Shown here piece by piece: positions 7,047 to 21,606 of a DNA stretch of 21,606 nucleotides. Origin of the DNA: a virus. Numbering within the stretch: the first letter of the stretch is position 1; each line of letters opens with the position of its first letter. The notes under the pieces were generated by a model. It did not search any database and was not told the DNA's origin. It saw only the letters and a program-made list of their open reading frames with translations. The stretch lies in the IMG/VR virus record IMGVR_UViG_3300020205_001179, positions 1-21,606 of that record; one strand, given 5' to 3'. A program made the translations under genes and the position numbers.

Positions 7047-7051
7047 ATGTT

Positions 7052-7058
7052 TATTTAC
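7052..7058 (-). promoter_or_regulatory. Late-promoter-like GTAAATA before gp17
   Basis: On the minus strand GTAAATA is followed by AACAT and then ATG. With T4-like spacing, transcription would begin at or next to the A of the start codon. It lies directly after the terminator of the preceding gene, so gp17 forms its own transcription unit. Confidence 0.55.
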
Positions 7059-7060
7059 AC

Positions 7061-7088
7061 AAAAAAAAGGGGCTATTACGCCCCTTTT
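7061..7088 (-). terminator. Rho-independent terminator between the 343-aa gene and gp17
   Basis: The minus strand has a 9-bp stem AAAAGGGGC / GCCCCTTTT with a 6-base loop and a run of eight T. It begins 19 bases after the stop of the 343-residue gene. Confidence 0.9.
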
Positions 7089-7107
7089 GATTACTGCTGA
7101 CAAATAC

Positions 7108-8139
7108 TTATCTGTTGAGCATTTTACTTAAGGCAACTATATCTGTTGATTCCTTGATTGGAAATGATTTTTCATCTTGTTGTTTTGATCCGCCTAATCT
7201 ATTGTTATTAGCTGGATTTTGCTGATCGTATCGATTGGCTTGATAGCTTACTGGTTGTGCTGGCTGTCCTGTAACTGCTCCCTTAATAGAATTCTTTGCT
7301 TTTTCTAACCACTGTGCTACTGATAAATTGTTATTATCTCTGTTGTAACGTTGTACAAAATTGTACATATCATTATGTTGATGGCCCTTTAACACATTTG
7401 ACCAGCTGTTGTGTTCTTTATAATCTGTTGGTTTTGGATATTGCTGTTGAAATGCGCTCGTTTCGATATAATCGGTAGGTTTCATTTGTGCAATAATTGC
7501 CTTTACTTCTGGGCTTTGAGAAATGTTAGCACCAAACCCACGGTTAAACTCAGCACTAGCTGGTTGGTATAACTTAACATCAAACTCATTTAGGCTTTCA
7601 CCTTTAATACTCTCGTAATGTCTAGTTAGTTGTTTAACTAGGCCTTCTTGAACCTGTGGGTTGCCCATAGGTAATCCAGCTTGGCGTGGGCGATGATCAC
7701 CTTGATTACTGTGCATATCACTGCCTCTTGGAAATATTGAATTAATATTTAATGTAGTTTCATCTGGATTAGTAGTAGATGTGCCAAAGCCGCCATCATT
7801 AATACTTTCTTCTTCATATGACTCTTCAGGTTCTCCGATCAATATGTCGTGAGTATCATCGTCATCGTGCGGTACATCATGCTCTGATCCGTCTTGAATG
7901 TCTTTAAGAACATTTAATAAATCACGAATACCACCTGCGCCGCTGCCGTTCATGCTGACATTCATTGTAACTGAATCGGTTTGTTTTGGGGCTGGCATAC
8001 GTCCCATTGGCATCATATCCATTCCACATTCTTCAACAGAAGTTTCAACTGGTGGTTCTGAAGCAACTGTGCCGTCCGCCGGTACCATATCTTCCTCATC
8101 GAGTCGTTTCATTGTTGCTAATAAATCTTGAAAGTTCAT
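7108..8139 (-). CDS. Uncharacterised acidic phage protein (343 aa)
   Basis: The ATG at 8139 (MNFQDLLATMKRLDEED) is chosen over the longer frame to 8181. It is preceded by AAGGAAAA and follows the TAA of the upstream gene by one base (TAATATG), which suggests translational coupling. The N-terminal third contains VTMNVSMNGSGAGGIRDLLN at about residues 60-80, followed by a strongly acidic stretch (DVPHDDDDTHD). The C-terminal half is Gln/Asn-rich, and the protein ends IKESTDIVALSKMLNR. This end resembles the C-terminus of the 656-residue protein. I do not recognise a family. The position between gp16 and gp17, ahead of a terminator, suggests a head or packaging role, but no function can be assigned. 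Confidence 0.65.
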   Translation of the reverse strand: MNFQDLLATMKRLDEEDMVPADGTVASEPPVETSVEECGMDMMPMGRMPAPKQTDSVTMNVSMNGSGAGGIRDLLNVLKDIQDGSEHDVPHDDDDTHDILIGEPEESYEEESINDGGFGTSTTNPDETTLNINSIFPRGSDMHSNQGDHRPRQAGLPMGNPQVQEGLVKQLTRHYESIKGESLNEFDVKLYQPASAEFNRGFGANISQSPEVKAIIAQMKPTDYIETSAFQQQYPKPTDYKEHNSWSNVLKGHQHNDMYNFVQRYNRDNNNLSVAQWLEKAKNSIKGAVTGQPAQPVSYQANRYDQQNPANNNRLGGSKQQDEKSFPIKESTDIVALSKMLNR

Positions 8140-8140
8140 A

Positions 8141-8749
8141 TTATTTTCCTTTTCTTGGATCTGGATTTGAAACCTTACCAAGCGGACTCTTAGCAGATGC
8201 TACTTTTTCTGCTTTAACAGGTTTTTCACTCGGGGCTTTCTTTGCTAAAATCTTTTCGTTAACACCTTTATATTGTGTTAATTTCTTTGTATGTGTGCCA
8301 AGTTCTTTAAGTAAGCTCATTACTTGTTTGTCACCAACTAATTTTTGACCATCTACATCTTCAAGAGGTTTTTCTAATAGTGACTCTCCTGTTGGCGTAT
8401 CGTTAGCGTGATTTAATTCTTCTTCTTCTTGTTCTAGTAAGTTGCGTACTTTAATTTTAGCAAGGGCAACACTACAGTGATCTGCTACTAAGTCGCGAAT
8501 TTGTAGGCTTGTTGCTGGATATGCTGTAGTAACATCATATACTGTAACACCAATATTCTTTTGATCTGGGAAATCAACTTGAGTTTCTTGAATAGGTGTG
8601 CTTTTCCCCTCTGAGCATGATTCTACTTTGAATTGTGCTAGAGCTTGTTTAATTTTTGTAACGCTGTCTTTTGGACAGTCGCCGGCAATTTTTACTTTAA
8701 ATTCGTAAACTTGTTTGCCTTCCATAACGTATTGTTTAAATGATTTCAT
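8141..8749 (-). CDS. Uncharacterised phage protein (202 aa)
   Basis: The N-terminus MKSFKQYVMEG is of a kind common in T4-like phage proteins. Residues about 13-105 look like a small alpha/beta domain (VYEFKVKIAGDCPKDSVTKI, VTVYDVTTAYPATSLQIRDL) that could be ferredoxin-like. The remainder is charged, with a Lys-rich C-terminus (PVKAEKVASAKSPLGK). Three Cys residues (about 25, 45 and 91) do not form an obvious metal site. A late-type ATAAATA ends 18 bases upstream and a GGGA-type ribosome site lies between it and the ATG. It shares a stop/start junction with the 343-residue gene. Function unknown; similar proteins seem to occur beside terminase genes in other T4-like phages, but this is from memory. 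Confidence 0.6.
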   Translation of the reverse strand: MKSFKQYVMEGKQVYEFKVKIAGDCPKDSVTKIKQALAQFKVESCSEGKSTPIQETQVDFPDQKNIGVTVYDVTTAYPATSLQIRDLVADHCSVALAKIKVRNLLEQEEEELNHANDTPTGESLLEKPLEDVDGQKLVGDKQVMSLLKELGTHTKKLTQYKGVNEKILAKKAPSEKPVKAEKVASAKSPLGKVSNPDPRKGK

Positions 8750-8767
8750 TGTGTAATCCCAGTATTG

Positions 8768-8774
8768 TATTTAT
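8768..8774 (-). promoter_or_regulatory. Late-promoter-like ATAAATA before the 202-aa gene
   Basis: The element overlaps the stop codon of gp16. With T4-like spacing the transcript would start near 8762, giving a leader of about 13 bases (CTGGGATTACACA) that includes a weak ribosome site. Confidence 0.45.
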
Positions 8775-9259
8775 TTCATATTCTTTAATCTTTCGATCAA
8801 ACTGTTGCGATCTGCTACAATAAAGCCATCACCTTGAATATTAACACTGTTGTCTTCTTGATTAGCATCTTGATCAAGTTTAGCTTTCTTTAGCTGTAGT
8901 TCGATCATTTTAAGTTTTTTGTCTATTTTTGCGGCTTTGGCGTCAATGGCATTTTTAAGCATTCCGCCAGCAACTTCAAATATACGTCCGCTATAACGTG
9001 CTTCTACGTTCATACCTAGATCCATTAAGTCGTCATACGCATCAGTAGCACGTTGTGCAAGTGCGTCAAACTCTGAATCTGCGGCATCGCCTAACCCTTT
9101 AACTTGGGGCAAACTAGCTGAAATTTTGTCAAACTCTTCCATGCTACGAAGGAACGTGTCTGGTTTTTCGTTCACAGCTTTTTGTTTCTTTTTTTCTTCT
9201 GCTTTGATAAGTTCCTTACTAGCAGGCAAATTTAACAGTTCTTCAAGTTTTTTTGTCAT
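8771..9259 (-). CDS. 16: Terminase small subunit (gp16-like)
   Basis: 162 residues, close to T4 gp16 (164). Mostly helical and highly charged: a Lys-rich N-terminus (IKAEEKKKQKAVNEK), then a central region with YDDLMDLGMNVEARYSGRIF and EVAGGMLKNAIDAKAAKIDK, which matches the R-x-x-EVA...LIK pattern of T4-like gp16 central helices. A short beta tail (VNIQGDGFIVADRNSLIERL) recalls the C-terminal segment of T4 gp16 ([20 protein letters not shown]). The protein forms rings that recognise DNA and stimulate gp17. GGAG lies about 13 bases upstream. It follows gp4 by 7 bases and is separated from gp17 by two unknown genes, unlike T4, where 16 and 17 are adjacent. Confidence 0.75.
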   Translation of the reverse strand: MTKKLEELLNLPASKELIKAEEKKKQKAVNEKPDTFLRSMEEFDKISASLPQVKGLGDAADSEFDALAQRATDAYDDLMDLGMNVEARYSGRIFEVAGGMLKNAIDAKAAKIDKKLKMIELQLKKAKLDQDANQEDNSVNIQGDGFIVADRNSLIERLKNMK

Positions 9260-9266
9260 ACTTTAC

Positions 9267-9704
9267 TTATGCTCCGCCTTGATGAAATAAATCATTTTCA
9301 TTGACAATACGAAACTTTATCCCTTGTTGTTTACACCACATTGTTGCCGCGGCCCACTTGGCTTGATTCTTAACAAACTGTGCTTGGTTATATTTGTTTT
9401 TACCCACACGCTCAATTAGTGTTTGGCTTGCAGGTTTAATTTCAATAAGTTCAACAATCATGCGATTTTTCTTATCTACGTATTGTATAAAAAAATCAGG
9501 TACATATACTGTTTGACGACCGGTTAACGGATCTCTGTAGGGAATTTGTATAGCTTCACTTGCCCATTTTTGAACACTGTTGTTAGTATCGCAAAATCGC
9601 ATAAAACTCCATTCCCAACTACTACGGTATACAGGAGTTTTAAGACCAACATATTTGCCGGGGTTTTCCATAGTAAACTTACCACGTGCAAATTTGCTAG
9701 CCAT
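9267..9704 (-). CDS. 4: Head completion protein / nuclease-fold (gp4-like)
   Basis: 145 residues, like T4 gp4 (about 150). The T4 family pattern is clear: PVYRSSWEWSFMRFCDTN (25-42), VQKWASEAIQIPYRDP (44-59), VYVPDFF (67-72) and ELIEIKP (85-91). D70, E88 and K90 form a PD-(D/E)xK-like arrangement, consistent with the TnsA-like endonuclease fold proposed for this family. gp4 acts late in head assembly, before tail joining. The ATG follows the preceding gene's TAA by one base (TAATATG) and has no Shine-Dalgarno sequence, so translation is probably coupled. Confidence 0.85.
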   Translation of the reverse strand: MASKFARGKFTMENPGKYVGLKTPVYRSSWEWSFMRFCDTNNSVQKWASEAIQIPYRDPLTGRQTVYVPDFFIQYVDKKNRMIVELIEIKPASQTLIERVGKNKYNQAQFVKNQAKWAAATMWCKQQGIKFRIVNENDLFHQGGA

Positions 9705-9705
9705 A

Positions 9706-10074
9706 TTAAACTAAAATGTTGCGCGATTCGTAATTATCAGCAATAGGCGCAGTGCGGTATCCTAACAGACTAATCTTTTCTCTGTATGCGTTTAAAACTT
9801 GGGCAACAACTTGGCTTAATTGAATTTCAGTTAATTTCTTTAATGTATCGACTAATTCAAATACATTAATATTATCTGCCCTTGCTTGATTTAAAAGGAC
9901 AATACTAGTATTTCTGGCGCTATCAGGATCAAATCCGTGTTTTAAAAAGAATCCTACTACTGCGTCAATCTGATTGCTTGGAAAACTTATTTGATTAATA
10001 AAAAATTTATCAAAGAATTGACGTACTTCAACTCCGCTGTCACTGGCTTGTAGTGATGGTAAATTTGTAGCCAT
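9706..10074 (-). CDS. Small conserved T4-like phage protein, possibly structural (122 aa)
   Basis: The protein begins MATNLPSLQASDSGVEVRQF and has a helical core (IDAVVGFFLKHGFD, SARNTSIVLLNQA, LTEIQLSQVVAQVLNAYR). I recall similar proteins beside the tail-tube genes of marine T4-like phages, without an established function. It is packed between the tube-like gene (TAACATG junction, one base between stop and ATG) and gp4. No catalytic motif is visible. Confidence 0.6.
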   Translation of the reverse strand: MATNLPSLQASDSGVEVRQFFDKFFINQISFPSNQIDAVVGFFLKHGFDPDSARNTSIVLLNQARADNINVFELVDTLKKLTEIQLSQVVAQVLNAYREKISLLGYRTAPIADNYESRNILV

Positions 10075-10075
10075 G

Positions 10076-11071
10076 TTATATACCTAGAATAGATTTAGTT
10101 GCGGTTATTGTATTGCTAACAGCATTTGCTACTGGAAATGCTATTCCTTGAATTCCGCTGACACCTTGTTGAACAGTGTTTACAATACTGCTTAATTTTC
10201 CGCCTTGGGTTGCTGCCGGAATATTTTGTGAATTTTGATAACCGTTAACTGTAGTAGTTAAATTATTAACAAATGATTGTGCGTTACCTTGGACATTGAC
10301 ATTAGATACAAAACTCGGACTTGCAGTACCTTGAGTTCCTCCGCTCAATGTGCTTGGAGATTGGTCGTAATGTTCTGACCCAAATCCAGGCGGGTCATCT
10401 GTTGTGACCATGCCATTTCCATAAGAAACTGCTTCAAACATAATAGTAGCACTGTTATCGTGTGAAGCTTGATTTGTATAATCTAATGCCCCGTGATTCC
10501 AACTAGCTATAATAGGCGAGTGTAATGTGTAACTTACATACTCATGTCGGGCCATTTGATAAATTGTTATTGAATTAAAAAACGGTAATATACTGCCGTT
10601 GTCAAAACCGTATGGTGTTTTAACATAATCAAATCCCTTAGTAGCTGTTCTGTTGTACGCTCCTGCTGATTGAGCAGACACACTATCGGCAAAATAATAT
10701 GCATAATAGTTTTGCCACAGCTGATTAATTAATCCCATGTTATCATCATGAAATTTAATATTTGCTGCAGTATATTTGTGACCAGTTACTACGTTCTTTT
10801 TTCTATTATACTGATTAAGTATTTCTGTATTAATAGTAAAGTTTGGAAGATCTACACTTTTAACTAGCATGTTGATTTCGTTTCTGTGTCGTTGAACTAG
10901 GTCAATACTTTTTAATGCCGCTTCGTTAACACTAAATGACACATGATATAAAAACTTTGTTTTTGGTAGCAATCTAAATTGATCGTCTACAAACAGTCGT
11001 GCGGCATGCTGATAATCTTTTAGATTAAAATCAGGAGTACTATTTAAAGATTGAGTAGGAGTAAAGGCCAT
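10076..11071 (-). CDS. Tail-tube-like / baseplate-associated protein (331 aa)
   Basis: The segment from about residue 35 to 215 has the layout of the gp19/gp54 tube fold: LPKTKFLYHVSFSVN, then MLVKSVDLPNFTINTEIL, YNRKKNVVTGHKYTAANIKF, an excursion containing MGLINQLWQNYYAYYFAD, and a closing strand pair around ITIYQMARHEYVSYTLHSP and ATIMFEAVSYGNGMV. The last 100 residues are Gln/Ser/Asn-rich. Family knowledge: gp19 polymerises as the tail tube, and gp54 caps the baseplate and starts the tube. At 331 residues this is closer in size to gp54 (320), but a second tube-like protein is equally possible. It has its own late-type element five bases before the ATG, no ribosome site, and a terminator separating it from gp19. 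Confidence 0.55.
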   Translation of the reverse strand: MAFTPTQSLNSTPDFNLKDYQHAARLFVDDQFRLLPKTKFLYHVSFSVNEAALKSIDLVQRHRNEINMLVKSVDLPNFTINTEILNQYNRKKNVVTGHKYTAANIKFHDDNMGLINQLWQNYYAYYFADSVSAQSAGAYNRTATKGFDYVKTPYGFDNGSILPFFNSITIYQMARHEYVSYTLHSPIIASWNHGALDYTNQASHDNSATIMFEAVSYGNGMVTTDDPPGFGSEHYDQSPSTLSGGTQGTASPSFVSNVNVQGNAQSFVNNLTTTVNGYQNSQNIPAATQGGKLSSIVNTVQQGVSGIQGIAFPVANAVSNTITATKSILGI

Positions 11072-11076
11072 AATAA

Positions 11077-11083
11077 TATTTAT
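11077..11083 (-). promoter_or_regulatory. Late-promoter-like ATAAATA before the tube-like gene
   Basis: The minus strand reads ATAAATA, TTATT, then ATG. T4-like spacing puts the transcription start on the A of the start codon. It lies about 37 bases after the gp19 terminator. Confidence 0.6.
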
Positions 11084-11119
11084 TTAAAAAATAAACTACG
11101 TAGTTAACTAGATGCCAAG

Positions 11120-11143
11120 AAAAAACCCACTAGAGTGGGTTTT
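11120..11143 (-). terminator. Rho-independent terminator after gp19
   Basis: A strong stem AAAACCCAC / GTGGGTTTT with a 4-base loop, followed on the minus strand by a run of six T. It starts seven bases after the gp19 stop and ends the gp18-gp19 transcription unit. Confidence 0.92.
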
Positions 11144-11150
11144 ATTTTAC

Positions 11151-11792
11151 TTAACCGCCTAACTGACCACCACCACCGGTAAGGTTAGTACTGCGAGTTT
11201 GTTTAAAGTTAGGTGTTCCTAATCCAGCAGTAGCACCCACTTGAACACAGTTATCTGGCTGGATTGTAATGTCAATCTCTGCCTGTGTTTGTACTGAGTA
11301 ATCTAATGCGTTATAGTTAGCAACTTGAATGTAGCAACCATAACATTCCCAAGTTTCTAATGCGGTTGGAACTGAAGCGCCGTTGCCGCCGTCTAACATT
11401 TCAATACGCATTGTAAACTTATAGTCACCGCCTGAGGCTGCGCTACTTTGTTCAAAGAAGTCGAATTGCTTTTGTAGTTGCTCGCCAACTAACTTGCTAA
11501 CAGCACCAGTTACGTCATCACGTAATTTGATTGCCATTGCGCTCCATACTGGTTTACCAGCGTAGTTAATCTTTGAATTGTATACTTCAATGGTCTGGTT
11601 AGCAAATGTAACAGTCGGTCTAACTGCTGTTGCAACCTGCTTTGTAAGTTCTGTAGTACCAGCAGACACGCCAAAGTTTTCAAACTGAATTCTAAAACGA
11701 TACTTCAGTTTTGGCATCAGCATACCTTGTGAGGCAGCTGATTGTCCTGATGCTAGTGGAACTGTAAATCTTGATAATGATGCGATTGACAT
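11151..11792 (-). CDS. 19: Tail tube protein (gp19-like)
   Basis: 213 residues (T4 gp19 has 163). The tube fold is suggested by MPKLKYRFRIQFENFGVS (26-43), a strand pair around QVATAVRPTVTFANQTIEVY, KINYAGKPVWSAMAIKLRDD, and a closing strand near LETWECYGCYIQVANYNALD, followed by a Gly-rich C-terminus. Hexamers of gp19 stack to form the inner tail tube inside the sheath. GGAG 10-13 bases upstream supports the ATG. It follows gp18 by 20 bases, is probably co-transcribed with it, and is followed by a strong terminator. Confidence 0.85.
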   Translation of the reverse strand: MSIASLSRFTVPLASGQSAASQGMLMPKLKYRFRIQFENFGVSAGTTELTKQVATAVRPTVTFANQTIEVYNSKINYAGKPVWSAMAIKLRDDVTGAVSKLVGEQLQKQFDFFEQSSAASGGDYKFTMRIEMLDGGNGASVPTALETWECYGCYIQVANYNALDYSVQTQAEIDITIQPDNCVQVGATAGLGTPNFKQTRSTNLTGGGGQLGG

Positions 11793-11812
11793 ATTTTTAT
11801 GCTCCGTTTATA

Positions 11813-14800
11813 TTAACCTAGACCCTTGATCTCGCCAGTGTTCTTCAAGCGTAATGGAATGTAAATAAATTCCACTGCTTTTACTGGTTCGATAGCAACG
11901 TCTAGATATAGTTCACTACGATCGATTCTAGCCGGAGTGTTATTACTTGTATCACACACTACTAGATAGTCGTATAGCGCACGTTGTCCTACTAATTCTA
12001 ACAATAGGCTTTCTGCTGCACCCTTAATTTCATTACGTGTAATTGTATCGTTTGGTTCAAATACATATGGTTTTGCTAACTGCGCAAACTGTCTACGTAG
12101 ATAAATTACCAAACGTGCTACGTTAATACGATCTAACGAGCTAGCTGCTCTTGCTCGAGTATATTGACCGTAGTTAACAAGTCCTGTACCTGTAATAAAT
12201 GTTAACGGATTAACTTTAATACTTGCTAGAGTGTCGCGTTGTCCGTTGTTTAATGCTACTGACTGGAACTCGCCTTCGCTAGTAATATAACCAACTGCTG
12301 TTGCGTTAGTGATACCGCCACGACGTGTTCCTGCTGGAGCAAACCAAGGATACGAAACGTTATCGCTTAAAGCAATTGTACGTAACATCATATGACTTGG
12401 TGGAACAACTACGTTGTTACCAATATTGTCGCTGGTAAAACCCCATGGATAGAAGAATCCAAGATATTCATCGCTTGAAACAAGCCCTTGATCATTGTCT
12501 TCTAATGCGCCGTTAACGTTATTACCCCAGTTGCTCAATGAAGTTGCGTCCGGTGTTAAGCGAGCAGGAGTATCAGCAACAACAAATGCTGTTAAACCAC
12601 GATCATAGTTTAAACTAACCATTTCACCTACTAGCTCAGAATACCCTGGGCAAGCAATCAAGTTAAACACACGTGATTCTTCATCACGGATTTGTTGGTT
12701 AGCATTAACAAGTGCTTGTAATGCTTGGATAACAACTTTACGTTGCGCCTTGCGACCAAATGTACCAGAACCGTCTTCCTGGTTACCAGCTTCACTTACC
12801 CAACGATGCGGATAGTATGTGCTCATGGATGGGTTACCAACCATGCGATTGTTGTCAGCTTCGACGTTAATATAATCACGTACAAACCGTTTAACGTTAA
12901 ATCCTGAACGACGTAAATTCCATAGTAACATACCTTTTGGATATAACGCAGGATCCGGAGCATCAAAGTCTAAGAAATTGCTTGTTAATAACTCAATAAT
13001 AGTACTGTCTGTTTGAGTAGCTCCAAGATTGCTGCCGCCGTTGATCCCCCAACGTGCGTCTCGGAATAAAATTCCTTCTTCTGTGCTTTGATCTGAATTA
13101 TCAACTAACACCCATTTTTTAGTAGTAAAATTAAACTTATAAATTCTTGGGAAGTTTTCTAAATCGCTTGTATCAATCCATATATCGCCATTAGCTAAGG
13201 CACTACCGTCGCTTTGTACAGCAGGTCGAGTTGCGCTGACAATTGGGCCAGCTGGATCAGTAGTAGTTCCGCCCGGTGCTTGATTTATAGTGATTGCTGT
13301 AGCGTCTTTATAGCCAACCCAGGTTGTTCCATTATGAATCATAAGATCAACTTCGTCGATCATTGAGTTGTACCATAATTTGCCATCGGCTGGAATAGTC
13401 GAAGGAGCATCAGGGCTAGCACTAGCAAATCCAACACGCTCGCCGTTTGCTGAACTGACTACAGTTGATGACCATAGACTTGCTAGATACTTGGTCGCAG
13501 ATGAAGGATCGCTTGGATCTCTCCATAAATTAAGAGTTGCTACATCAGCGTTGTCTGGATCAGCAATGTACGGTGTAAATAATGCTGACAGTAATCCACC
13601 TGCTGCACTACTGTCAACGATTCTAAAATCGCCACCCTGTCTGTGACTAATTGTAACTTTTCCAGTTGCAGCATCATATTCAGCATTAATGTTAATTAAT
13701 CCTGAACTACCAATTTCTGCTACTAGCGTTTCAGCATCAAGAGTGCCGCCAGCGGCGCCAGCAGTAGTAAACGCAATAGTGACTGGAGCACTTAGCTGTG
13801 AATTGCCTGTTAGACTTTCTTCTATGGTAAATGATACAGCTTTAGCCGCAGTCCACACGCTCGGAGACATATCAACAGACTGAATAGATGTTGCTCCAAC
13901 TCCGGCACGATAAAATAATTTAAAGTTAGCTAGTTGTGGACCGTTATGATTTATTCCGCCTTCGTCTGTATTATATTGAACATAGATTGATTTTAATGCT
14001 AAATTAATTCCACCGCCTGTTGGATCTAAACTAGCTAATGCAGCTTGATTAGTTGAATATAACGGAGCGGCTTTTTCAACCCAAGCGCCCGATGCAGCAT
14101 TGTAATTTTTAACTCTCCAACGTGCGCCGTTATTTGGTTCTGTTGTTTTAATCCAAAGTGATCCAGTTGGGCGAGGACTTGCGTCAAATGTTTTATATTG
14201 CGGAACACTTGTGTGAGGAGAAATAGTTAGTGCTGTTGGAGCATAAGTGCCTGCTGTTAATCCTAATGCGGTTAATCCAGCAGTACCGTTTTGCGCCTCA
14301 ATAAGAATAGCAGTACTGTCACTATATAATGCTAGACAGCCATTTACTATTTCGGCACTAATTCCAAGAGTAGTTAATGGAGCACTTGCGTTAATTGCGG
14401 AAACTAATGCGCTAAGGTTAGCAGGGTCGTCAAACACGTTAGTGTTAATTTTAATAGATTTACCACTACCTAGAGATGGTAAAGCCTGTGTGCCAGTTAC
14501 AGCAGGCCAACTTGCTACCCACTCCGGAGTACCTACTTCAACCCAACTTCCTGAAGAATTTTTAAAGTATAAAGTGTTTACTGTTGTAGTTGCGTCAATT
14601 GCGTAGTCGCCAACATATCCAATACTAGCACGAGGAGCACTGCCTGCGCCATTTGATAATTTGCTTACTAATGTAATAATTGTTGGATATTTAATTGTAA
14701 ATGTTTGACCGCCGGTTGTTCTTGCGCCTGCGCTGTTCCATTCAAAAATACCATATTGTGTTGCTGCAGTGTCAAACCAGTATGTGTTGTCTTCCGGGTC

Positions 14801-15187
14801 GCCTAGCGGAGCATCGGCTAACGCATCTAATTGATTTAGGTCAATATCAGCACGTACAACATACGCACGGTTGCTTACACCTAAATAACTGTATGCCGCT
14901 TGTAGTCCGTATTCGTTCTGTTCACCAGCATGAATAGGATTGTTATTAGCATCAGTTTTAAACACAGGTGTGCCAAATGTGTCTGCTAAATCTTTCTGAC
15001 TTGTTAATAGATAAACTTGGCCAGCGTTAGCGGCAAGTGTACCTCCAGCAATTCCAGTTGCTGATCCGTTTTGCTTGCTTTCAGCAGAGGCAACGATAAT
15101 TAAGGGTGTTGTACCCGGTGCGGCAGGTGTATAGAACGATTCGTCTATTACGGTAACTGCTACGCCTGGTGAACTTAGTTGAGCCAT
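11813..15187 (-). CDS. 18: Tail sheath protein (gp18), greatly enlarged
   Basis: 1124 residues against 659 in T4. The N-terminus (AQLSSPGVAVTVIDESFYTP, then YGLQAAYSYLGVSNRAYVVR near 95-115) and the C-terminal 400 residues are sheath-like: FNVKRFVRDYINVE, QRDTLASIKVNPLTFITGTG, YGQYTRARAASSLDRINVAR, LVIYLRRQFAQLAKPYVFEP and the closing FIYIPLRLKN. Between about residues 130 and 700 lies a large insertion with at least three short modules of the form G-x-(L/I)-W...W (near 336-372, 597-630 and 662-697). In contractile tails the sheath drives injection; insertions normally project outward. GGAG 8 bases upstream supports the ATG, and a CTAAATA element lies farther upstream. The insertion may decorate the tail surface; that is inference. 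Confidence 0.93.
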   Translation of the reverse strand: MAQLSSPGVAVTVIDESFYTPAAPGTTPLIIVASAESKQNGSATGIAGGTLAANAGQVYLLTSQKDLADTFGTPVFKTDANNNPIHAGEQNEYGLQAAYSYLGVSNRAYVVRADIDLNQLDALADAPLGDPEDNTYWFDTAATQYGIFEWNSAGARTTGGQTFTIKYPTIITLVSKLSNGAGSAPRASIGYVGDYAIDATTTVNTLYFKNSSGSWVEVGTPEWVASWPAVTGTQALPSLGSGKSIKINTNVFDDPANLSALVSAINASAPLTTLGISAEIVNGCLALYSDSTAILIEAQNGTAGLTALGLTAGTYAPTALTISPHTSVPQYKTFDASPRPTGSLWIKTTEPNNGARWRVKNYNAASGAWVEKAAPLYSTNQAALASLDPTGGGINLALKSIYVQYNTDEGGINHNGPQLANFKLFYRAGVGATSIQSVDMSPSVWTAAKAVSFTIEESLTGNSQLSAPVTIAFTTAGAAGGTLDAETLVAEIGSSGLININAEYDAATGKVTISHRQGGDFRIVDSSAAGGLLSALFTPYIADPDNADVATLNLWRDPSDPSSATKYLASLWSSTVVSSANGERVGFASASPDAPSTIPADGKLWYNSMIDEVDLMIHNGTTWVGYKDATAITINQAPGGTTTDPAGPIVSATRPAVQSDGSALANGDIWIDTSDLENFPRIYKFNFTTKKWVLVDNSDQSTEEGILFRDARWGINGGSNLGATQTDSTIIELLTSNFLDFDAPDPALYPKGMLLWNLRRSGFNVKRFVRDYINVEADNNRMVGNPSMSTYYPHRWVSEAGNQEDGSGTFGRKAQRKVVIQALQALVNANQQIRDEESRVFNLIACPGYSELVGEMVSLNYDRGLTAFVVADTPARLTPDATSLSNWGNNVNGALEDNDQGLVSSDEYLGFFYPWGFTSDNIGNNVVVPPSHMMLRTIALSDNVSYPWFAPAGTRRGGITNATAVGYITSEGEFQSVALNNGQRDTLASIKVNPLTFITGTGLVNYGQYTRARAASSLDRINVARLVIYLRRQFAQLAKPYVFEPNDTITRNEIKGAAESLLLELVGQRALYDYLVVCDTSNNTPARIDRSELYLDVAIEPVKAVEFIYIPLRLKNTGEIKGLG

Positions 15188-15220
15188 TTTGTGATCTCCA
15201 ATGAATACTATTTCTAATTG

Positions 15221-15227
15221 TATTTAG
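15221..15227 (-). promoter_or_regulatory. Late-promoter-like CTAAATA before gp18
   Basis: The minus strand reads CACTAAATACAA. With T4-like spacing the leader would be about 28 bases and would contain the GGAG ribosome site, a conventional leadered arrangement. Confidence 0.5.
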
Positions 15228-15242
15228 TGGATTTTGGCTTTT

Positions 15243-15257
15243 TGTATATGATATACA
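15243..15257. promoter_or_regulatory. Palindrome in the gp18/HNH divergent region
   Basis: TGTATAT-G-ATATACA is a perfect 7-bp inverted repeat around a single base, flanked by GGCT (15236) and AGCC (15257), which could extend a hairpin with a bulge. It lies between the divergent gp18 and HNH genes, so an operator or hairpin is possible; function unknown. Confidence 0.35.
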
Positions 15258-15281
15258 GCCTAGAAAAGGTTATAAAAAGGC

Positions 15282-15288
15282 TTAAATA
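15282..15288 (+). promoter_or_regulatory. Late-promoter-like TTAAATA before the HNH gene
   Basis: TTAAATA is followed by AAAT and ATG, four bases between element and start codon. An AAGG lies 12 bases before the ATG and could serve as a weak ribosome site if transcription begins farther upstream. Confidence 0.35.
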
Positions 15289-15292
15289 AAAT

Positions 15293-15619
15293 ATGAGACC
15301 ATTATGTGACTGCGGATTACAGCCCGTTGCTGTAAATTACTATAAACTAGGGAAACCTTACTACAGGAGTCAGTGCGGAGCGTGTAGTAGGGGAGTAAAA
15401 TTACCACGTTGGTTTACTAGCGGATACCGTCCTAAGACATCTTGCGATAAATGTGGATTCAAAAGCCCGCATAAAGAAGTTTTTGCAGTGTTCCACGTAG
15501 ATGGAAATTTAAATAATTGTAAGCCCGCAAATTTAAAAACAGTGTGTGCTAATTGTCAGCGGGTTCTACATAAAGAAGGAATTAAGTGGAAGCAAGGTGA
15601 TTTGATACCAGATCTTTAA
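15293..15619 (+). CDS. Small HNH-type zinc-binding protein, probable endonuclease
   Basis: 108 residues. Two metal-binding Cys clusters are visible: C5/C7 with C28/C31, and C51/C54 with C85/C88. Between the second pairs lies VFHVDGNLNN (H68, D70, N72) followed by PANLKTVCANCQRVLH (N80, C85, C88, H93), the pattern of HNH endonucleases with a structural zinc. Similar small proteins occur in marine T4-like phages. They may be homing-type or packaging-associated nucleases; which applies here cannot be decided. It is transcribed opposite to its neighbours gp18 and gp1. Its last 38 bases overlap the end of the convergent gp1 gene. No intron or split gene is seen nearby. Confidence 0.75.
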   Translation: MRPLCDCGLQPVAVNYYKLGKPYYRSQCGACSRGVKLPRWFTSGYRPKTSCDKCGFKSPHKEVFAVFHVDGNLNNCKPANLKTVCANCQRVLHKEGIKWKQGDLIPDL

Positions 15620-16229
15620 CCTGTTCAAATAGGTCATCAATGGTAGTATCATTAGGGATAGTAGCATCAAACTTAGTTCCACACCATGCAGTTTCGCTAG
15701 CGTGAATTTTTAATTTCGACATGCGACTACTTGCTATTGACCAATTCATACAGCGATCACCGGCGTTCATGTCGCAAGCATCATTGTACCATTCAGGATC
15801 ATCACCACGCTTTACACGTATTACAATACCGCCCGCATCTTTGATTGATTTAATTTCGTTAGGAAAACGGCAGTCGCTAATAACAATGTCGTCAGTTGAG
15901 TTGCGTAGTTTGTTTTCTAAGCTGGCAATCCAGATATCGTCGTGAAATGCTTTGCGGCAAACTTCAGTACCCCAGTATTGTAGTACCCATCTAGGAGTTA
16001 AGTTAGGCATGTTAAGTCGTTCTGACCACCACGGATCTACTTGCTCACGCCACTCACGGGCTTGTTTAGTGCGCCCTTCAAGCATAGTGCGATCCCAGCC
16101 AAAAACATGGGCTACTGCGTCTTTTAGACTGTTGGCAAAACTTTCTCTTCTAAAACCGTGAAAGTTAGTTAAGTAATCGGCAATGGTATCTTTGCCCGAA
16201 CCAATAAAACCGCACACACCTATGATCAT
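15582..16229 (-). CDS. 1: Deoxynucleoside monophosphate kinase (gp1-like)
   Basis: 215 residues (T4 gp1 has 241). The P-loop GFIGSGKDT is at residues 7-15, followed by FANSLKDAVAHVFGWDR, LQYWGTEVCRKAF (compare the ALGTD motif of T4 gp1), DDIWIASLENKL and IVISDCRFPNEIKSIKDAGG, which is the substrate/LID-side DxRxxxE segment. The enzyme phosphorylates dNMPs to dNDPs for phage DNA synthesis. AAGG 6 bases upstream of the ATG supports the start. A near-consensus sigma-70 promoter precedes it, so it can be expressed independently of the late structural genes around it. The 3' end overlaps the convergent HNH gene. Confidence 0.85.
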   Translation of the reverse strand: MIIGVCGFIGSGKDTIADYLTNFHGFRRESFANSLKDAVAHVFGWDRTMLEGRTKQAREWREQVDPWWSERLNMPNLTPRWVLQYWGTEVCRKAFHDDIWIASLENKLRNSTDDIVISDCRFPNEIKSIKDAGGIVIRVKRGDDPEWYNDACDMNAGDRCMNWSIASSRMSKLKIHASETAWCGTKFDATIPNDTTIDDLFEQVKDLVSNHLAST

Positions 16230-16234
16230 AAGAA

Positions 16235-16278
16235 ACCTTGTAAAGTACTGCTAGTATATAACAGATCTATTACAAGGT
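16235..16278. repeat. 9-bp inverted repeat bracketing the gp1 promoter
   Basis: ACCTTGTAA (16235-16243) and TTACAAGGT (16270-16278) are perfect inverted repeats, with centres about 35 bases apart. One arm overlaps the -35 box and the other contains the gp1 ribosome site. The expected transcript start (about 16246) lies between the arms, so only one arm is transcribed; this favours a DNA-level operator over an RNA hairpin. Confidence 0.6.
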
Positions 16279-16281
16279 CAA
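16253..16281 (-). promoter_or_regulatory. Sigma-70-type promoter for gp1
   Basis: On the minus strand TTGACC (16281-16276) is followed by exactly 17 bases and TATACT (16258-16253). This is five of six at both the -35 and the -10, with ideal spacing. It begins nine bases after the gp13 stop codon and drives gp1. This promoter would be read by unmodified host RNA polymerase. Confidence 0.8.
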
Positions 16282-16289
16282 ATTATTTG

Positions 16290-17060
16290 TTAGCCAATAA
16301 TAAATGTCATTGGACTACCGCCTGATACAAATTCGGATAATTCTTTGTCTAATTTAGTTAGCTCTTCTTTGCTAGCTGACAATAATGCCGCACCGTTGAG
16401 CGTAATTCCGCCTGATCCCGGGCCAGCAATTGATCCAAATTTGCTACGTGCTTCACCTAATATACCTTTACAAACTGCCAATGTATAATCATATAACCAT
16501 TGTTTGGCATATATGTCTTGTAGCAATATATAATCGGGTCGATAGTTGTGTGTACGCAATAGAATTTGTTCACCTTGCGCAAACGGACGTTGAAGAATTG
16601 TTAATATATGGCTAGTTGGTTTCCATTTAAATTCAATATAACTACCAAACATCTTACCTACTAACTTCTGATAGCCAGCAAATAGTTCGTATGTTGCTAA
16701 TCCACCCATCATGCTACCGCTTAACAAGTAGCTGTTTGTGTATGCTAAATTAAACGGTTCAAACAATGTGCCGCCTGCTCCTAACCCGCTTCGAGAGCCA
16801 ATGGCCCTACGAAATACGCTTTGTACTTCGATGATTTCATTAGGTAATCGATACTCGTTTTGATCCTGAATTAGTTCAAGGAAACTATAGCTTTCTTCTA
16901 CAGCATTGCTACTACGCTGTCTAAAGCGAGTAATAGCAGTATTTAACGCAGTTTCGTAATGCTTTGGATCTAACTCTACTTCAACCATGCCGTCGCCTAG
17001 CATGTTGCGCACGTAGTCAAACACATTATTTCGTTCAATTAAAGATGTAGAATCAGACAT
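16290..17060 (-). CDS. 13: Neck protein (gp13-like)
   Basis: 256 residues from the ATG at 17060 (MSDSTSLIERNNVFDYVRNM). This start has GGAG 8 bases upstream; the in-frame extension to 17111 reads through a promoter-like element and is rejected. T4-like neck/connector features: DPKHYETALNTAITRFRQRS (31-50), YSFLELIQDQNEYRLPNEII and EVQSVFRRAI, then FGSYIEFKWKPTSHILTILQ and an ILLRTHNYRPDY segment. gp13 and gp14 close the filled head and make the tail attachment site. T4 gp13 is 309 residues. The adjacent gp14 and gp15 support the assignment, although here gp14 is on the other strand. Confidence 0.75.
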   Translation of the reverse strand: MSDSTSLIERNNVFDYVRNMLGDGMVEVELDPKHYETALNTAITRFRQRSSNAVEESYSFLELIQDQNEYRLPNEIIEVQSVFRRAIGSRSGLGAGGTLFEPFNLAYTNSYLLSGSMMGGLATYELFAGYQKLVGKMFGSYIEFKWKPTSHILTILQRPFAQGEQILLRTHNYRPDYILLQDIYAKQWLYDYTLAVCKGILGEARSKFGSIAGPGSGGITLNGAALLSASKEELTKLDKELSEFVSGGSPMTFIIG

Positions 17061-17076
17061 ATTAGTTCTCCACTCA

Positions 17077-17083
17077 TATTTAT
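17077..17083 (-). promoter_or_regulatory. Late-promoter-like ATAAATA before gp13
   Basis: The minus strand reads CGATAAATATGAGTGGAGAA. T4-like spacing gives an 11-base leader beginning at GGAG, so the transcript would start with its ribosome site. It forms a perfect 10-bp inverted repeat with the gp14 element (17099-17108). Confidence 0.6.
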
Positions 17084-17100
17084 CGTCAACAGGCAATACG

Positions 17101-17107
17101 ATAAATA
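17101..17107 (+). promoter_or_regulatory. Late-promoter-like ATAAATA before gp14
   Basis: The plus strand reads CGATAAATATCATTATG, with five bases between the element and the ATG and no ribosome site in the preceding 20 bases. The predicted start site coincides with the A of the start codon. Confidence 0.6.
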
Positions 17108-17112
17108 TCATT

Positions 17113-18573
17113 ATGCCACGATTATCACTCTACAAGCCCGAACGAGGGCAGGACTATAAGTTTATAGATCGCCAGATTTCTGAGATGTTTCAGGTAGGAG
17201 CAACTGATGTTTACCTACACAAATACATTGGATCAAATACTAGCGAAGCTAATGCTACGGCCGATCAGCCGCATTATGCTACAACGGCTGTAACTAACAT
17301 ACAAGATTTACTATTTTTAGAAAACAGAGATCGTAAGTATGATTCAGAAATTTACAGAATTCGTGGTCTATACAATGTACAAAATATTGACTTCAATTTA
17401 AGCCAATTTGGTTTATTCATAGATAACGACACGTTGTTTATGACCGTACATATTAACGATTTTATCAAATACATTGGACGCAAACCTATTAGCGGCGATG
17501 TTATGGAATTACCACATTTACGTGACCAGTTTGCCTTAAATGATTTTGAAGTAGGATTGCCGCGTTACTATGTTATTGAAGATGTAGGTCGTGCTAGTGA
17601 AGGATTTAGCAGTACTTGGTATCCACATTTGTATCGGTTGAAACTTAGAAAAGTTACAGACAATCAACAGTTTGCTGATATCTTTAACAAGCCTATGCTT
17701 GATGTTAACGGAGATCCGTTATTAGATAGTAGTGGTAATCTAACTGGTCAAACGTTGCGCGATTTATTAAGCACCCATAATAAAGAATTAGCAGTTAATG
17801 ATATTGTAATTGCTCAAGCAGAAGCAGATACTCCTAAGAGCGGGTATGAAACGAGACAGTTTTACACACTGGCCGTCGATGCTCAAGGTAAGCCTATTTT
17901 AAATACTGCCGATGCAACTGCGATGGATGCTAGCAATGCCACTGTTACCGCACAAGAAAGCAATGCTAGACCAATTAGAACTGGCTACACTGGGTATTTG
18001 GTAGGCGACGGGTTTCCAGTTAACGGGTATGACTTTGGGCATGGAATTCAATTTCCGGAAAGCGCAATGCAGGATGATTTCTTTTTACGCACAGATTTCT
18101 TGCCTAACAGATTATTTAGATACCAAGATAACCGTTGGATTAAAGTTGAAGATGCGGTACGTATGACCCTGACTAACGATAATACTCGCCAGACATTAAA
18201 AACTAGCTTTATTAATAACACTGATGTAATATACAATCAACAAGTAGCTGTTGATGTTGTTCCATTAGAAGCCGGAGACTATATAATTAATACTACTATA
18301 AATTATATAGAAGCACCGTACATAATGCTTAAACAGTCTATTACAGAAATTGGATTTACGGTTTCTGATTATCCTGATCAAGTATTAATTTCAAGTTATC
18401 TAGTAGATACTATTGCTAAAGTTAGAATTACACTACCATTAACTAATTTATTAGATCCAGACACTCAACAGACTATACCATACACAGAAATATGGCAAGT
18501 TGGTCTGTATGATAATAAAGAAGAAGTAAGACAGAGTCTATCAAAAGCTCTTCGACCTAAGGCGGATTTATAA
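17113..18573 (+). CDS. 14: Neck protein (gp14-like), enlarged
   Basis: 486 residues; T4 gp14 has 256. The conserved part is about residues 15-205: ISEMFQVGATDVYLHKYIGS, YDSEIYRIRGLYNVQNIDFN, GLFIDNDTLFMTVHINDFIK, GDVMELPHLRDQF and a YPHLYRLKLRKV strand, parallel to the T4 sequence SNFGMQVQDEVTLSINPGLF, GDLIYFP and FYQLGQN. The remaining 270 residues are additional, with a beta-rich C-terminal domain (for example AVDVVPLEAGDYIINTTINY). gp14 completes the neck with gp13. It starts the plus-strand unit gp14-gp15-Nudix and overlaps gp15 by one base (TAATG). Confidence 0.82.
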   Translation: MPRLSLYKPERGQDYKFIDRQISEMFQVGATDVYLHKYIGSNTSEANATADQPHYATTAVTNIQDLLFLENRDRKYDSEIYRIRGLYNVQNIDFNLSQFGLFIDNDTLFMTVHINDFIKYIGRKPISGDVMELPHLRDQFALNDFEVGLPRYYVIEDVGRASEGFSSTWYPHLYRLKLRKVTDNQQFADIFNKPMLDVNGDPLLDSSGNLTGQTLRDLLSTHNKELAVNDIVIAQAEADTPKSGYETRQFYTLAVDAQGKPILNTADATAMDASNATVTAQESNARPIRTGYTGYLVGDGFPVNGYDFGHGIQFPESAMQDDFFLRTDFLPNRLFRYQDNRWIKVEDAVRMTLTNDNTRQTLKTSFINNTDVIYNQQVAVDVVPLEAGDYIINTTINYIEAPYIMLKQSITEIGFTVSDYPDQVLISSYLVDTIAKVRITLPLTNLLDPDTQQTIPYTEIWQVGLYDNKEEVRQSLSKALRPKADL

Positions 18574-20051
18574 TGCTCCACTTCTATGACGGACAAATTC
18601 GTAGATATTTAACACAGACTATTCGTGTGCTAAGTAATTTTTCTGTAAAATATGGTGATGGCACGTTGGTTCGTATTCCTGTAATGTACGGTGATGCTGA
18701 CAAACAAGTAGCTAATATTATGCGTCAGAATTCAGAAAACGTAGTTAATTCTACTCCTCGTATTAGTATATACATTTCAGCGTTAGATATTGACAGAGCA
18801 AGATTAAGTGACAGCACGTATGTTGGTAAATTGAATTTTAGAGAACGTGACATTGATCAAAGCACATACACTGTAGGTCAAGGTAAAAATTATACTGTTG
18901 AACGTATGATGCCAACTCCGTTTAAATTAACAATGAAATGTGACATATGGTCAGCAAACGCAGATCAAAAATTACAGATACTTGAACAAATTCTTGTGTT
19001 GTTTAATCCAAGTTTAGAACTACAAACAACTGATAATTATATTGATTGGACTAGTTTAACTGTTTTAGAACTTGCTAGTATGTCATGGAGTAGTCGATCG
19101 GTACCAATTGGCACACAAGATGCTCCTATAGATATCGCTACTCTTACCCTTGAAACACCTATATGGATTAGTCCTCCAGCTAAAGTTAAACACCTTGGTG
19201 TTATTACTAGTATTGTTACTAGCATTTACCAAGATAGTACTACCGATTATGGCGGGTATATTGACGGGCTTGGCGCCGACTTAGGAGGCGATACTACTAC
19301 AGTAAGTAACGAATTATCTAAAGATACTGTAACAATTAGTAACTATCATATACAAGTTTATAATAGTCAAGCACTACTACTGGGTAAAAACGAAAATACT
19401 GTTCCTCAAGAACCTACATTAGATATACCAATAAGGCAAGGCGCTATTTTAATATGGGACGAGTTGTTTAGTCAGCATCCCGGAATGTATAAAGCAGGGT
19501 CGAGTAGAATATTTTTAAGCCAGCCTGACGGGTCAACAGTTATTGGTACTATTGCTATTAGTGCAATTGATCCTGCTATACTACAAATAAACTGGGATCC
19601 GGATACATATCCCAAAGATGATTTGTTAACAGAAAATATTTTTAGTAGTTATCAAAGTGTTAGAACCGGTAGTCCGGGCACGTTTGACGCTATTATTGAT
19701 CCAACTACTAAAGGTCCAAGAGGGTCAGGCTTAGTTGATCCAACCACTGGCGTATTAGAACTAGGTGCTGGTACAAGATACTTGTTAGTTGAAGATATTG
19801 GAGCAACTAACAATGATGATGGTCCAGATGCTTGGAAGAATAATGACGGTACAGATTTTATAGCACATGCTAATGATATTATAGAATGGGACGGGGCTGC
19901 TTGGAATATTATTTTTGATGCTCAAGAATCAGGCCAGCATCTTCTTCAAACAAATATATACACTGGCATACAGTACGTGTGGAACAATGTACAGTGGGCA
20001 AAATCATTTGAAGGCGATTACCGAGTCGGGCAATGGAGAATAGAACTGTAA
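18573..20051 (+). CDS. 15: Tail terminator / sheath stabiliser (gp15-like), enlarged
   Basis: 492 residues; T4 gp15 has 272. The N-terminal 210 residues match T4 gp15: FYDGQIRRYLTQTIRVLSNF (T4: FYNSSFRRYATLMGDLFSNI), VRIPVMYGDADKQVANIM, STPRISIYISALDID, PTPFKLTMKCDIWSANADQK, LQILEQILVLFNPSLELQ, and a final strand TLTLETPIWISPP. gp15 forms the ring that caps the tail and joins it to the neck. The C-terminal 270 residues are extra and end in WDGAAWNIIFDAQES and GIQYVWNNVQWAKSFEGDYR, beta segments of a type repeated in large phage structural proteins. AAGGCGG lies 8 bases before the ATG, which overlaps the gp14 stop. Confidence 0.9.
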   Translation: MLHFYDGQIRRYLTQTIRVLSNFSVKYGDGTLVRIPVMYGDADKQVANIMRQNSENVVNSTPRISIYISALDIDRARLSDSTYVGKLNFRERDIDQSTYTVGQGKNYTVERMMPTPFKLTMKCDIWSANADQKLQILEQILVLFNPSLELQTTDNYIDWTSLTVLELASMSWSSRSVPIGTQDAPIDIATLTLETPIWISPPAKVKHLGVITSIVTSIYQDSTTDYGGYIDGLGADLGGDTTTVSNELSKDTVTISNYHIQVYNSQALLLGKNENTVPQEPTLDIPIRQGAILIWDELFSQHPGMYKAGSSRIFLSQPDGSTVIGTIAISAIDPAILQINWDPDTYPKDDLLTENIFSSYQSVRTGSPGTFDAIIDPTTKGPRGSGLVDPTTGVLELGAGTRYLLVEDIGATNNDDGPDAWKNNDGTDFIAHANDIIEWDGAAWNIIFDAQESGQHLLQTNIYTGIQYVWNNVQWAKSFEGDYRVGQWRIEL

Positions 20052-20488
20052 AAGATCGTATTGTATGCAGCGGAGCATTGTTCTACGCTAAATCAACACG
20101 ACGAGTTCTATTGTTACAAAAAGCGCAAGGTAAACATGCCGGAACATGGGGATTAGTAGGCGGCACTAATCTAATTGATGAAAATCCGTGGCAGGGGCTT
20201 CAGCGTGAAGTTAAAGAAGAAATAGGAACTCCCCCTAAGATTCTAAAAACAATTCCTTTAGAAACATTCGTGTCAAACGACAAAGTGTTCAATTTTCACA
20301 CGTACTTGTGCGTAATAGAAAATGAATTTATTCCTATATTAAGTGACGAACATATTGCGTGGGGATGGTCGACTATTGACTACTCACCAAAACCTTTACA
20401 TCAAGGATTGCGCAATAGTTTCAACAGTAAGACAATCCGTAATAAATTACAGACTGTCTTTGATCTCGTTGATATAATAACTCATTAA
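20033..20488 (+). CDS. Nudix (MutT-type) hydrolase
   Basis: 151 residues. The Nudix box G-x5-E-x7-REVxEExG is complete at residues 44-65 (G44, E50, R58, E59, E62, E63, G65); only the following aliphatic position is Thr. Upstream AGTWGLVGG is the usual strand before the box. Nudix enzymes hydrolyse nucleoside diphosphates linked to another group; the substrate (oxidised dNTP, ADP-ribose, capped RNA or other) cannot be read from the sequence. The ATG lies inside the end of gp15 (19-base overlap), so translation is probably coupled. The stop overlaps the stop of the convergent gene in a shared TTAA. Confidence 0.88.
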   Translation: MENRTVKDRIVCSGALFYAKSTRRVLLLQKAQGKHAGTWGLVGGTNLIDENPWQGLQREVKEEIGTPPKILKTIPLETFVSNDKVFNFHTYLCVIENEFIPILSDEHIAWGWSTIDYSPKPLHQGLRNSFNSKTIRNKLQTVFDLVDIITH

Positions 20489-21606
20489 GCCTGCGCTTCA
20501 CCCCAACGAATAACTACGTTTGTTGGTATTGCTGCCCCTGAAGTTTTATACACGTTAATAGCTAACACGTCTGGACCGTTTGGATACGTTCCCCTACCGC
20601 CTAGTGTTGTATTAGTTAATTCTTTCAATTCGCCTAACTCTAGAGTTTGCGCAGTTCCCGGTGCCGCAATAAACGAGAACACTGTTTCGCCTGGTTGCGC
20701 ATATGGTGGTAAACCAAATTGGAATGTGATTGTACTTGCCGCACCAATTGCTAATATTGAACTTTGTGTAAAGTTAACACGATAATATGATGTGCCAGCA
20801 AATGAACTTAATGCGCTAATGTTTGATATCTTAGTGCCCGATGGAAACTTTGTAGGGTCAACAATTTCAGTACCAGTAGTTGCGCCATACGTGCTTGTCA
20901 GTGTTTCCCAGCTTGCTTGTGTAAAATATAAGAAAGATGTATTTGTACTAATAACCGCAGGAGTAAATGCCACAGTTGCGTTTGCTGATATTGTACTTAC
21001 AGAAGTTCTACTTAATAAAATTGTGTAATATTCAATAGTAGTAAATGTTACATTCACTGACGGAGCAATTGCTGCCAACAAGCTAGTGTTAAATGTAACA
21101 GTATAGTAGTTGACGCCAGCAAACGTCCTTAACGCACTAATAGCTTGTATCTGTGTCCCAACAGCAAATTTACCAGCATCGTTTACTGTATTAGTAACAA
21201 CCGCAGAACCAATTGGTAACGCAACCCACGATGCTTGCGTAAAGTTTAGTGTAGTTGCTCCAATAGACGCCTGTCCTGTTACAAAGAACGGAACAGCTCT
21301 GCCTGCGTTGTGTGCGCTCACTGAGTTAGCAGTCATTACAATTTGATAATACGCTATTCCACTAAAAATAGCAGGACCATTTACTTGTTGTACTGTTGTA
21401 CCAGCAGGAAAGTTTGCTGTTCCAAATACCGCAGTACCTACACCGGCATTCAATGCTTGCCACGACGCTTGTGTAACGTTAATGTAGTTAACTCCGGCAC
21501 CTACGTTAAATGCAGCATTATTTGGAACCGTTGCGTTTCCGGTAATTAAGCCTAGCGTAGTAGCAACTGGGGTTGGATTGATAGTAGCAGACACTACCGT
21601 AGTACC
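20485..21606 (-). CDS. Repeat-built virion-type protein (partial, N-terminus beyond right edge)
   Basis: The frame is open to the right edge, so the GTG at 21594 is not a convincing start and the gene continues outside. The visible 374 residues contain three repeats of about 75-80 residues, each with a TQASW motif (codons near 21460-21474, 21226-21240 and 20908-20922) and a (S/A)GxxYYxV strand, plus a truncated repeat with only the YYTILL half. The C-terminal 75 residues (QPGETVFSFIAAPGTAQTLE ... LAINVYKTSGAA ... VIRWGEAQA) form a separate domain that I associate with structural proteins of marine and freshwater T4-like phages. It is Thr/Ser/Ala/Val-rich with very few charges, typical of fibre or surface proteins. 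Role in the virion is inferred. Confidence 0.7.
   Translation of the reverse strand, partial: GTTVVSATINPTPVATTLGLITGNATVPNNAAFNVGAGVNYINVTQASWQALNAGVGTAVFGTANFPAGTTVQQVNGPAIFSGIAYYQIVMTANSVSAHNAGRAVPFFVTGQASIGATTLNFTQASWVALPIGSAVVTNTVNDAGKFAVGTQIQAISALRTFAGVNYYTVTFNTSLLAAIAPSVNVTFTTIEYYTILLSRTSVSTISANATVAFTPAVISTNTSFLYFTQASWETLTSTYGATTGTEIVDPTKFPSGTKISNISALSSFAGTSYYRVNFTQSSILAIGAASTITFQFGLPPYAQPGETVFSFIAAPGTAQTLELGELKELTNTTLGGRGTYPNGPDVLAINVYKTSGAAIPTNVVIRWGEAQA

Follow-up and report, generated by a model that had tools for sequence, protein, structure and literature searches.

A sigma-70-type promoter within a predicted translational lock ahead of a giant-phage nucleotide kinase gene

The closest described systems come from phage T4. 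For its gene e, the early transcripts are long, fold up and yield ~100-fold less lysozyme, and late transcripts lack the 5′ part of the structure (PMC3014915). For e, soc, 49 and I-TevI alike, PMC3014915 and PMC2988022 describe upstream-initiated RNA that folds and hides the ribosome site, and a second RNA, made from a local promoter, whose start lies within the hairpin, which has no 5′ strand and which is translated; the inner promoter is late, the silenced RNA early or middle. Genes controlled by hairpins of this T4 type are all late, going by PMC2988022. According to the same paper, a hairpin likewise covers the ribosome sites of Aeh1 mobE and T4 segB, each lying within a longer transcription unit, but these are homing endonuclease genes, grouped there with the late-promoter cases.

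Here we compare these systems with a locus in a 21.6-kb linear IMG/VR fragment of a freshwater giant phage (“the window”, i.e. the whole stretch of DNA analysed). As in the T4 cases, the ribosome site of the controlled gene, gp1, is computed to be paired in upstream-initiated RNA, and RNA from the local promoter lacks the 5′ strand if it begins at the predicted +1; unlike in T4, the inner promoter is of the sigma-70 type, the outer RNA is predicted to be late and the gene encodes a nucleotide enzyme. A local late (gp55) promoter, a feature of the T4-type device, is absent from this gap, which holds TTGACC-17-TATACT instead, and we therefore file the locus as a variant of the T4 device rather than a member. 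In the insertion sequences IS10, IS50 and IS200, transcripts from outside fold so as to cover the transposase start, and internal ones do not; these are transposable elements whose arm comes from the element end rather than from a promoter spacer, and they are not kin by descent. Besides the T4 cases, a literature search covering open PMC papers turned up no lock of this kind with a sigma-70 promoter in it.

We consider it likely that the locus is a promoter-coupled translational lock, that is, a T4-type promoter-in-hairpin filter with its timing reversed; support for this model comes from sequence and computation throughout. The DNA of the gp1 promoter would also encode the 5′ half of an RNA hairpin, with the gp1 ribosome site forming the 3′ half. 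Polymerase at the sigma-70-type promoter would start within this hairpin, at the predicted +1 (16246), and the resulting short mRNA without the 5′ arm would be translated. Read-through RNA from the upstream gene gp13, if made, would hold both arms, fold and hide the gp1 Shine-Dalgarno sequence, lowering translation; late read-through would yield no kinase, which would come from the gene's own promoter, presumably an early or middle one. Were this correct, late transcription would silence an early-type gene without a protein, the position of the promoter in the hairpin selecting the transcript to be read, and the T4 rule of late genes under such hairpins, as given in PMC2988022, would be inverted. 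The model would also explain replication-phase genes within late operons and provide a short, portable insulator against read-through.

A promoter and an inverted repeat in the gp13–gp1 gap

All features of the locus lie on the minus strand. The gp13-like neck gene (16290–17060; PHROG 211, E 5.4e-30), the proposed source of read-through, and the gp1-like deoxynucleoside monophosphate (dNMP) kinase gene (15582–16229; PHROG 139, E 3.2e-53), the proposed target of control, are separated by 60 nt, a gap filled by a promoter and an inverted repeat. The window's proteins have PHROG matches to dNMP kinase, head-tail adaptor and tail sheath. An HNH-endonuclease-like gene on the plus strand (15293–15619) lies between gp1 and the sheath gene, convergent with gp1, whose end its 3′ end overlaps.

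The initial annotation had described a near-consensus promoter, TTGACC-17-TATACT, ahead of gp1, bracketed by a perfect 9-bp repeat with one arm at the −35 box and the other holding the gp1 ribosome site, and the coordinates bear this out (16281–16253 for the promoter). Consensus scanning and comparison with relatives place the −35 hexamer TTGACC at 16276–16281 and the −10 hexamer TATACT, which falls in the hairpin loop region, at 16253–16258, with a 17-nt spacer between them. Complementarity and covariation define the 5′ arm of the outer stem, ACCTTGTAA (16270–16278), which overlaps the −35 box and spacer and is anti-Shine-Dalgarno; its perfect complement over 9 bp, the 3′ arm TTACAAGGT (16235–16243), follows after 26 nt and is further supported by folding. 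Within the 3′ arm lies the gp1 Shine-Dalgarno sequence AAGG (16236–16239), recognised by its sequence and its computed accessibility, which ends 6 nt upstream of the ATG at 16229. Folding and covariation also point to an inner stem between CTGTTA in the promoter spacer (16259–16264) and TAGCAG (16248–16253). The predicted +1 at 16246, the seventh base past the −10 box, was placed by the usual −10 to +1 distance, and the position of the 5′ end was scanned computationally.

The further claim that this is the only strong host-type promoter in the window did not hold up, as a plus-strand site at 11786 outscores it (11/12 vs. 10/12). That site, TTGACA-17-TATATT (11786–11814), is antisense, lies in the gap between the gene at 11151–11792 and the sheath gene, and is probably a chance match. 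Overall, the consensus scan returned matches at shuffle level (40 vs. 41.5 over positions 8000–21606; 15 vs. 18.8 over 1–8000), and counting such matches was dropped as uninformative. Given these counts and the better site at 11786, the promoter string alone proves little; the gp1 promoter is credible because it is conserved among gp1 leaders.

For the outer transcript, we take ATAAATA to be the T4-type late promoter core. A match lies ahead of gp13 at 17077–17083; the longest gp13 ORF begins at 17111, and the ATG at 17060 was chosen on account of this core and a ribosome site there. The window holds five copies of the motif (9.2 expected), all five of them 4–18 nt before an ATG. ATAAATA occurs near the start of 15 of 38 gp13-like genes examined, window included, and in none of the 62 gp1 leaders among the matches listed. 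Two divergent cores at 17076–17108, one for gp13 and one for the gene at 17113, lie between these two genes and together make up an inverted repeat.

To quantify masking, the cost of opening gp1 positions −14 to +3 was computed from RNA energies for read-through RNA and for RNA beginning at the predicted +1. In the window, opening costs 8.5 kcal/mol in read-through RNA vs. 2.7 kcal/mol in own-promoter RNA. The computed unpaired probability of the Shine-Dalgarno sequence is ~0 in the former and, for the first three bases of CAAGGT, 0.83–0.93 in the latter; the predicted +1 comes after the 5′ arm, and the own-promoter RNA is thus predicted to be open. The gp13 stop codon is only 11 nt upstream of the 5′ arm, so that ribosomes terminating there might unfold the stem and make the lock weaker.

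Arm pairing and ribosome-site accessibility among gp1 relatives

At least 80 gp1 loci, on contigs of up to 340 kb, were fetched by means of the gp1 protein, making 81 sequences with the window. Leaders of at least 60 nt numbered 80, 64 of them distinct (L047 was left out as too short). Among the matches listed, 62 of the 64 have a promoter-like pair scoring at least 8/12, with 19–24 nt from the end of the −10 box to the ATG. Two stem layouts accompany this promoter. In type A, that of the window, the −35/spacer region pairs with the ribosome site (ACCTTGTAA/TTACAAGGT, CCCCTGTAA/TTACAGGGG, ACCCCTCA/TGAGGGGT and TCTCCTAG/CTAGGAGA). In type B, the promoter is kept, often nearly letter for letter, and a short stem instead joins the bases right after the −10 box to those right before the ATG, leaving the Shine-Dalgarno sequence in the loop (e.g. 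AGAGC/GCTCT, AGCGT/ACGCT, AGCAT/ATGCT, AGTATC/GATACT). Most gp1 relatives have such a stem of only 5–6 bp with the Shine-Dalgarno sequence looped out.

The arms of type A drift in sequence and stay paired, one of them always lying in the ribosome site. In a MAFFT alignment of 14 rows (13 distinct) and 15 pairs, 85% of cells were paired vs. 73.7% after shuffling, 22 cells were changed on both sides (7.8 shuffled) and the covariation score was 0.386 (0.203 shuffled), each unmatched in 500 shuffles; sliding the partners by 1–3 columns left 35–52% paired. In three leaders (L004, L071, L077) the 5′ arm is misaligned by one base; these rows were kept, which lowers the count. Weaker signals came from the number of pairs with two-sided change (6 vs. 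4.2; 43/500 shuffles) and from further pair types (17 vs. 14.4; 48/500). Several positions of the type-A stems hold G-U pairs, which would be mismatches in DNA.

The computed masking of the ribosome site extends to the relatives. Over the 62 distinct leaders among the matches listed, opening costs averaged 8.1 kcal/mol in read-through and 4.3 kcal/mol in own-promoter RNA, being higher in the former for 58 of 62. Swapping 5′ halves among leaders lowered the read-through mean from 8.10 to 5.5, with none of 20,000 permutations above 6.41, although such permutation counts overstate significance because related leaders are not independent. When the 5′ end was moved downstream in the computation, type-A sites opened as soon as the 5′ arm in the spacer was lost, and the others as soon as the bases after −10 were lost. 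The difference between the two RNAs reaches at least 5 kcal/mol in 15 and at least 2 kcal/mol in 43 of the 62 (matches listed), and the lock effect is modest in many other gp1 relatives. Stem length including G-U pairs separated cognate from swapped halves poorly (stems of at least 8 in 20/62 gp1 leaders vs. 30% of swaps, and in 22/55 leaders of the dsbA set described below vs. 26%), and energy and Watson-Crick-only measures were used alongside.

Leaders without a promoter of their own were also seen. In L016, L018 and L020, gp1 lies 15 nt past another gene and its ribosome site is open (1.7 kcal/mol in L016), as the lock model predicts; contrary to L016, the site of promoterless L028 is closed (6.0 kcal/mol).

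The gene order neck–gp1 kinase–sheath is common to the window, PA5oct, Cassandra, CBB and 121Q. In CBB and 121Q, one additional gene precedes gp1 in an otherwise identical neighbourhood, and in PA5oct and Cassandra 4 nt separate the neck gene from the gp1 start, too few to hold a promoter or lock; the PA5oct annotation lists gp1 as a virion protein on the basis of mass spectrometry. No comparable promoter-in-lock was recognised in the gp1 leaders of named phages (6 records examined out of 515). The gp1 gene of Sinorhizobium phage Phosso (L276, 1430–1492) carries a strong hairpin over its ribosome site (opening cost 15.6 kcal/mol) and no recognisable sigma-70 promoter; it could be the same device with a different promoter type.

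The layout at other genes and its selectivity

A scan of four relative contigs revealed similar structures both at a DsbA-like gene (assigned to PHROG 639, transcriptional regulator; annotated as DsbA in MIJ3) and at an orphan gene for a 116-aa protein (P116). Duplicates, leaders shorter than 60 nt and one promoterless leader per set were dropped. For the 55 distinct dsbA leaders with a promoter, mean opening costs were 9.5 in read-through and 1.25 in own-promoter RNA, vs. 7.3 when permuted (maximum 8.37); for the 17 P116 leaders, the values were 12.8, 2.6 and 8.7 (maximum 11.06). Watson-Crick stems of at least 9 bp occur in 16 of the 55 dsbA leaders (permuted mean 3.8), and 17 of the 55 lack a difference of 5 kcal/mol. 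The arms at both genes are unrelated in sequence to those of gp1, and the layout is the same. Depending on the leader, the anti-Shine-Dalgarno arm of dsbA falls within the spacer or over the −10 box while still pairing with the Shine-Dalgarno sequence, and its location is therefore not fixed by the promoter.

In the cultured Pseudomonas phage PA5oct, dsbA (216266–216541) follows a virion adhesin gene and precedes the DNA polymerase gene. Its leader combines TTGACT-17-TATAAT with the arms TAACTCCGTT and AACGGAGTTA, a 10-bp lock, and its opening costs of 18.5 vs. 2.7 kcal/mol make up the largest difference among 11 promoter sets in that genome. MIJ3 shows the same dsbA layout. The presence of this layout in a cultured phage makes the idea testable now.

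The gene for the late sigma factor, gp55, served as a control. Among 67 distinct leaders, 61 have a promoter; the read-through cost (3.9) resembles the permuted one (4.2), and 2 of 61 reach a difference of at least 5. All 76 loci with sufficient flank have a divergent ORF (at least 150 aa) that begins no more than 130 nt upstream; the automatic neighbour count mostly returned “same strand” from short antisense frames, and the long divergent ORF was taken as the gene. With a divergent neighbour, no read-through is expected from it.

In ten contigs, 13 of 119 promoter-plus-start sets were flagged as locked by a hand tally, comprising 8 of the 15 sets that belong to the three families (gp1, dsbA, orphan) vs. 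5 of the 104 others; one of these five is a gp55 copy (G013), despite its divergent neighbour. A general rule that a co-directional neighbour entails a lock was rejected, since the promoter of the sliding clamp gene (named from reading its protein, the PHROG of which has unknown function) has such a neighbour and no lock. The device thus appears selective, not automatic.

More tentatively, and with somewhat less confidence than doubt, we suggest that self-unlocking promoters are a repeatedly evolved filter in giant phages of this group. The −35/spacer DNA would act as an anti-Shine-Dalgarno sequence in any read-through RNA, so that selected genes among late ones (dNMP kinase, DsbA-like, orphan) would be translated from RNA of host-type promoters only, and late transcription itself would shut them off with no repressor.

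Alternative readings of the repeat

The best-surviving alternative, which we nevertheless regard as unlikely, is an RNA hairpin with another role, such as a translational repressor site, an RNase site that later frees the gp1 ribosome site, or an mRNA stabiliser. The evidence for RNA pairing is compatible with any function of the stem, and type-B stems present the Shine-Dalgarno sequence in a loop; loop and arm sequences are unconserved, however, unlike what a protein site requires, the 5′ arm is absent from own-promoter RNA, and what recurs at dsbA and P116 is the relation to promoter and Shine-Dalgarno sequence.

Less probable still is a DNA operator, at which a phage or host repressor bound to the inverted repeat over the promoter would shut gp1 off. 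The initial annotation had favoured such an operator, one that could switch off the kinase, for instance once late transcription sets in; the geometry does resemble a shut-off device of that direction, but a DNA site bound by a protein is not supported. A perfect 9-bp repeat does bracket the promoter, and dinucleotide shuffling of the 60-nt gap produced such a repeat in 50 of 5000 cases. Yet the same 9-mer pair, expected at other early promoters, occurs nowhere else in the 21.6-kb window, and the repeat is absent from most relatives that keep the promoter, an outcome named beforehand as speaking against an operator; most retain TTGACCTTGTAATAAAACTGTTATATACT or a near form without a 9-bp partner. 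Among TTGAC-18-TATANTA sites in ten relative contigs, none away from gp1 shares the gp1 spacer. The exact 9-mer pair was found in 11 stretches of viral contigs, one of which (L083) is the window's own sequence at the same gap; the other ten were taken, judging by their flanks, to be unrelated places. Arms that drift with pairing kept, G-U pairs included, and a dsbA 5′ arm that shifts relative to the promoter likewise argue against an operator, and we rejected a repressor operator on the grounds that the palindrome sequence is not conserved where the promoter is. An RNA hairpin on read-through mRNA explains the drift under maintained pairing, the G-U pairs, the arm in the ribosome site and the lack of further copies in the window.

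Equally improbable, in our view, is that promoter and repeat are unrelated features brought together by chance. Folding of the single sequence is indeed unremarkable (z = −1.28 against 96-nt shuffles, 25 of 200 of which fold as well), and perfect 9-bp repeats are in excess window-wide (18 positions vs. a shuffle mean of 3.1); against this stand the coordinated changes over relatives and genes, together with the gp55 control. Least probable of all is a weak intrinsic terminator of gp13 overlapping the gp1 promoter: the hairpin does lie in the gap past a gene, with TTTCTT downstream, but its stem is AT-rich, its loop long and a T run missing, a terminator scan passed it over, and in other leaders the 3′ arm reaches the start codon.

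A separate kind of promoter hairpin came to light in the relative contigs. At G003:6937, G004:6904 and 149503, G001:147346, G011:246178, G016:136651 and others, the entire 17-nt promoter spacer consists of a GC-rich hairpin whose loop is tiny (e.g. TTGACAGGACC-TTCG-GGTCCTGTTATAAT), the arms of which vary among contigs while their complementarity stays. These promoters mostly lie ahead of a PHROG 1314 gene, directly past an ATPase gene, and leave the ribosome site uncovered; they possibly represent a terminator fused to a promoter.
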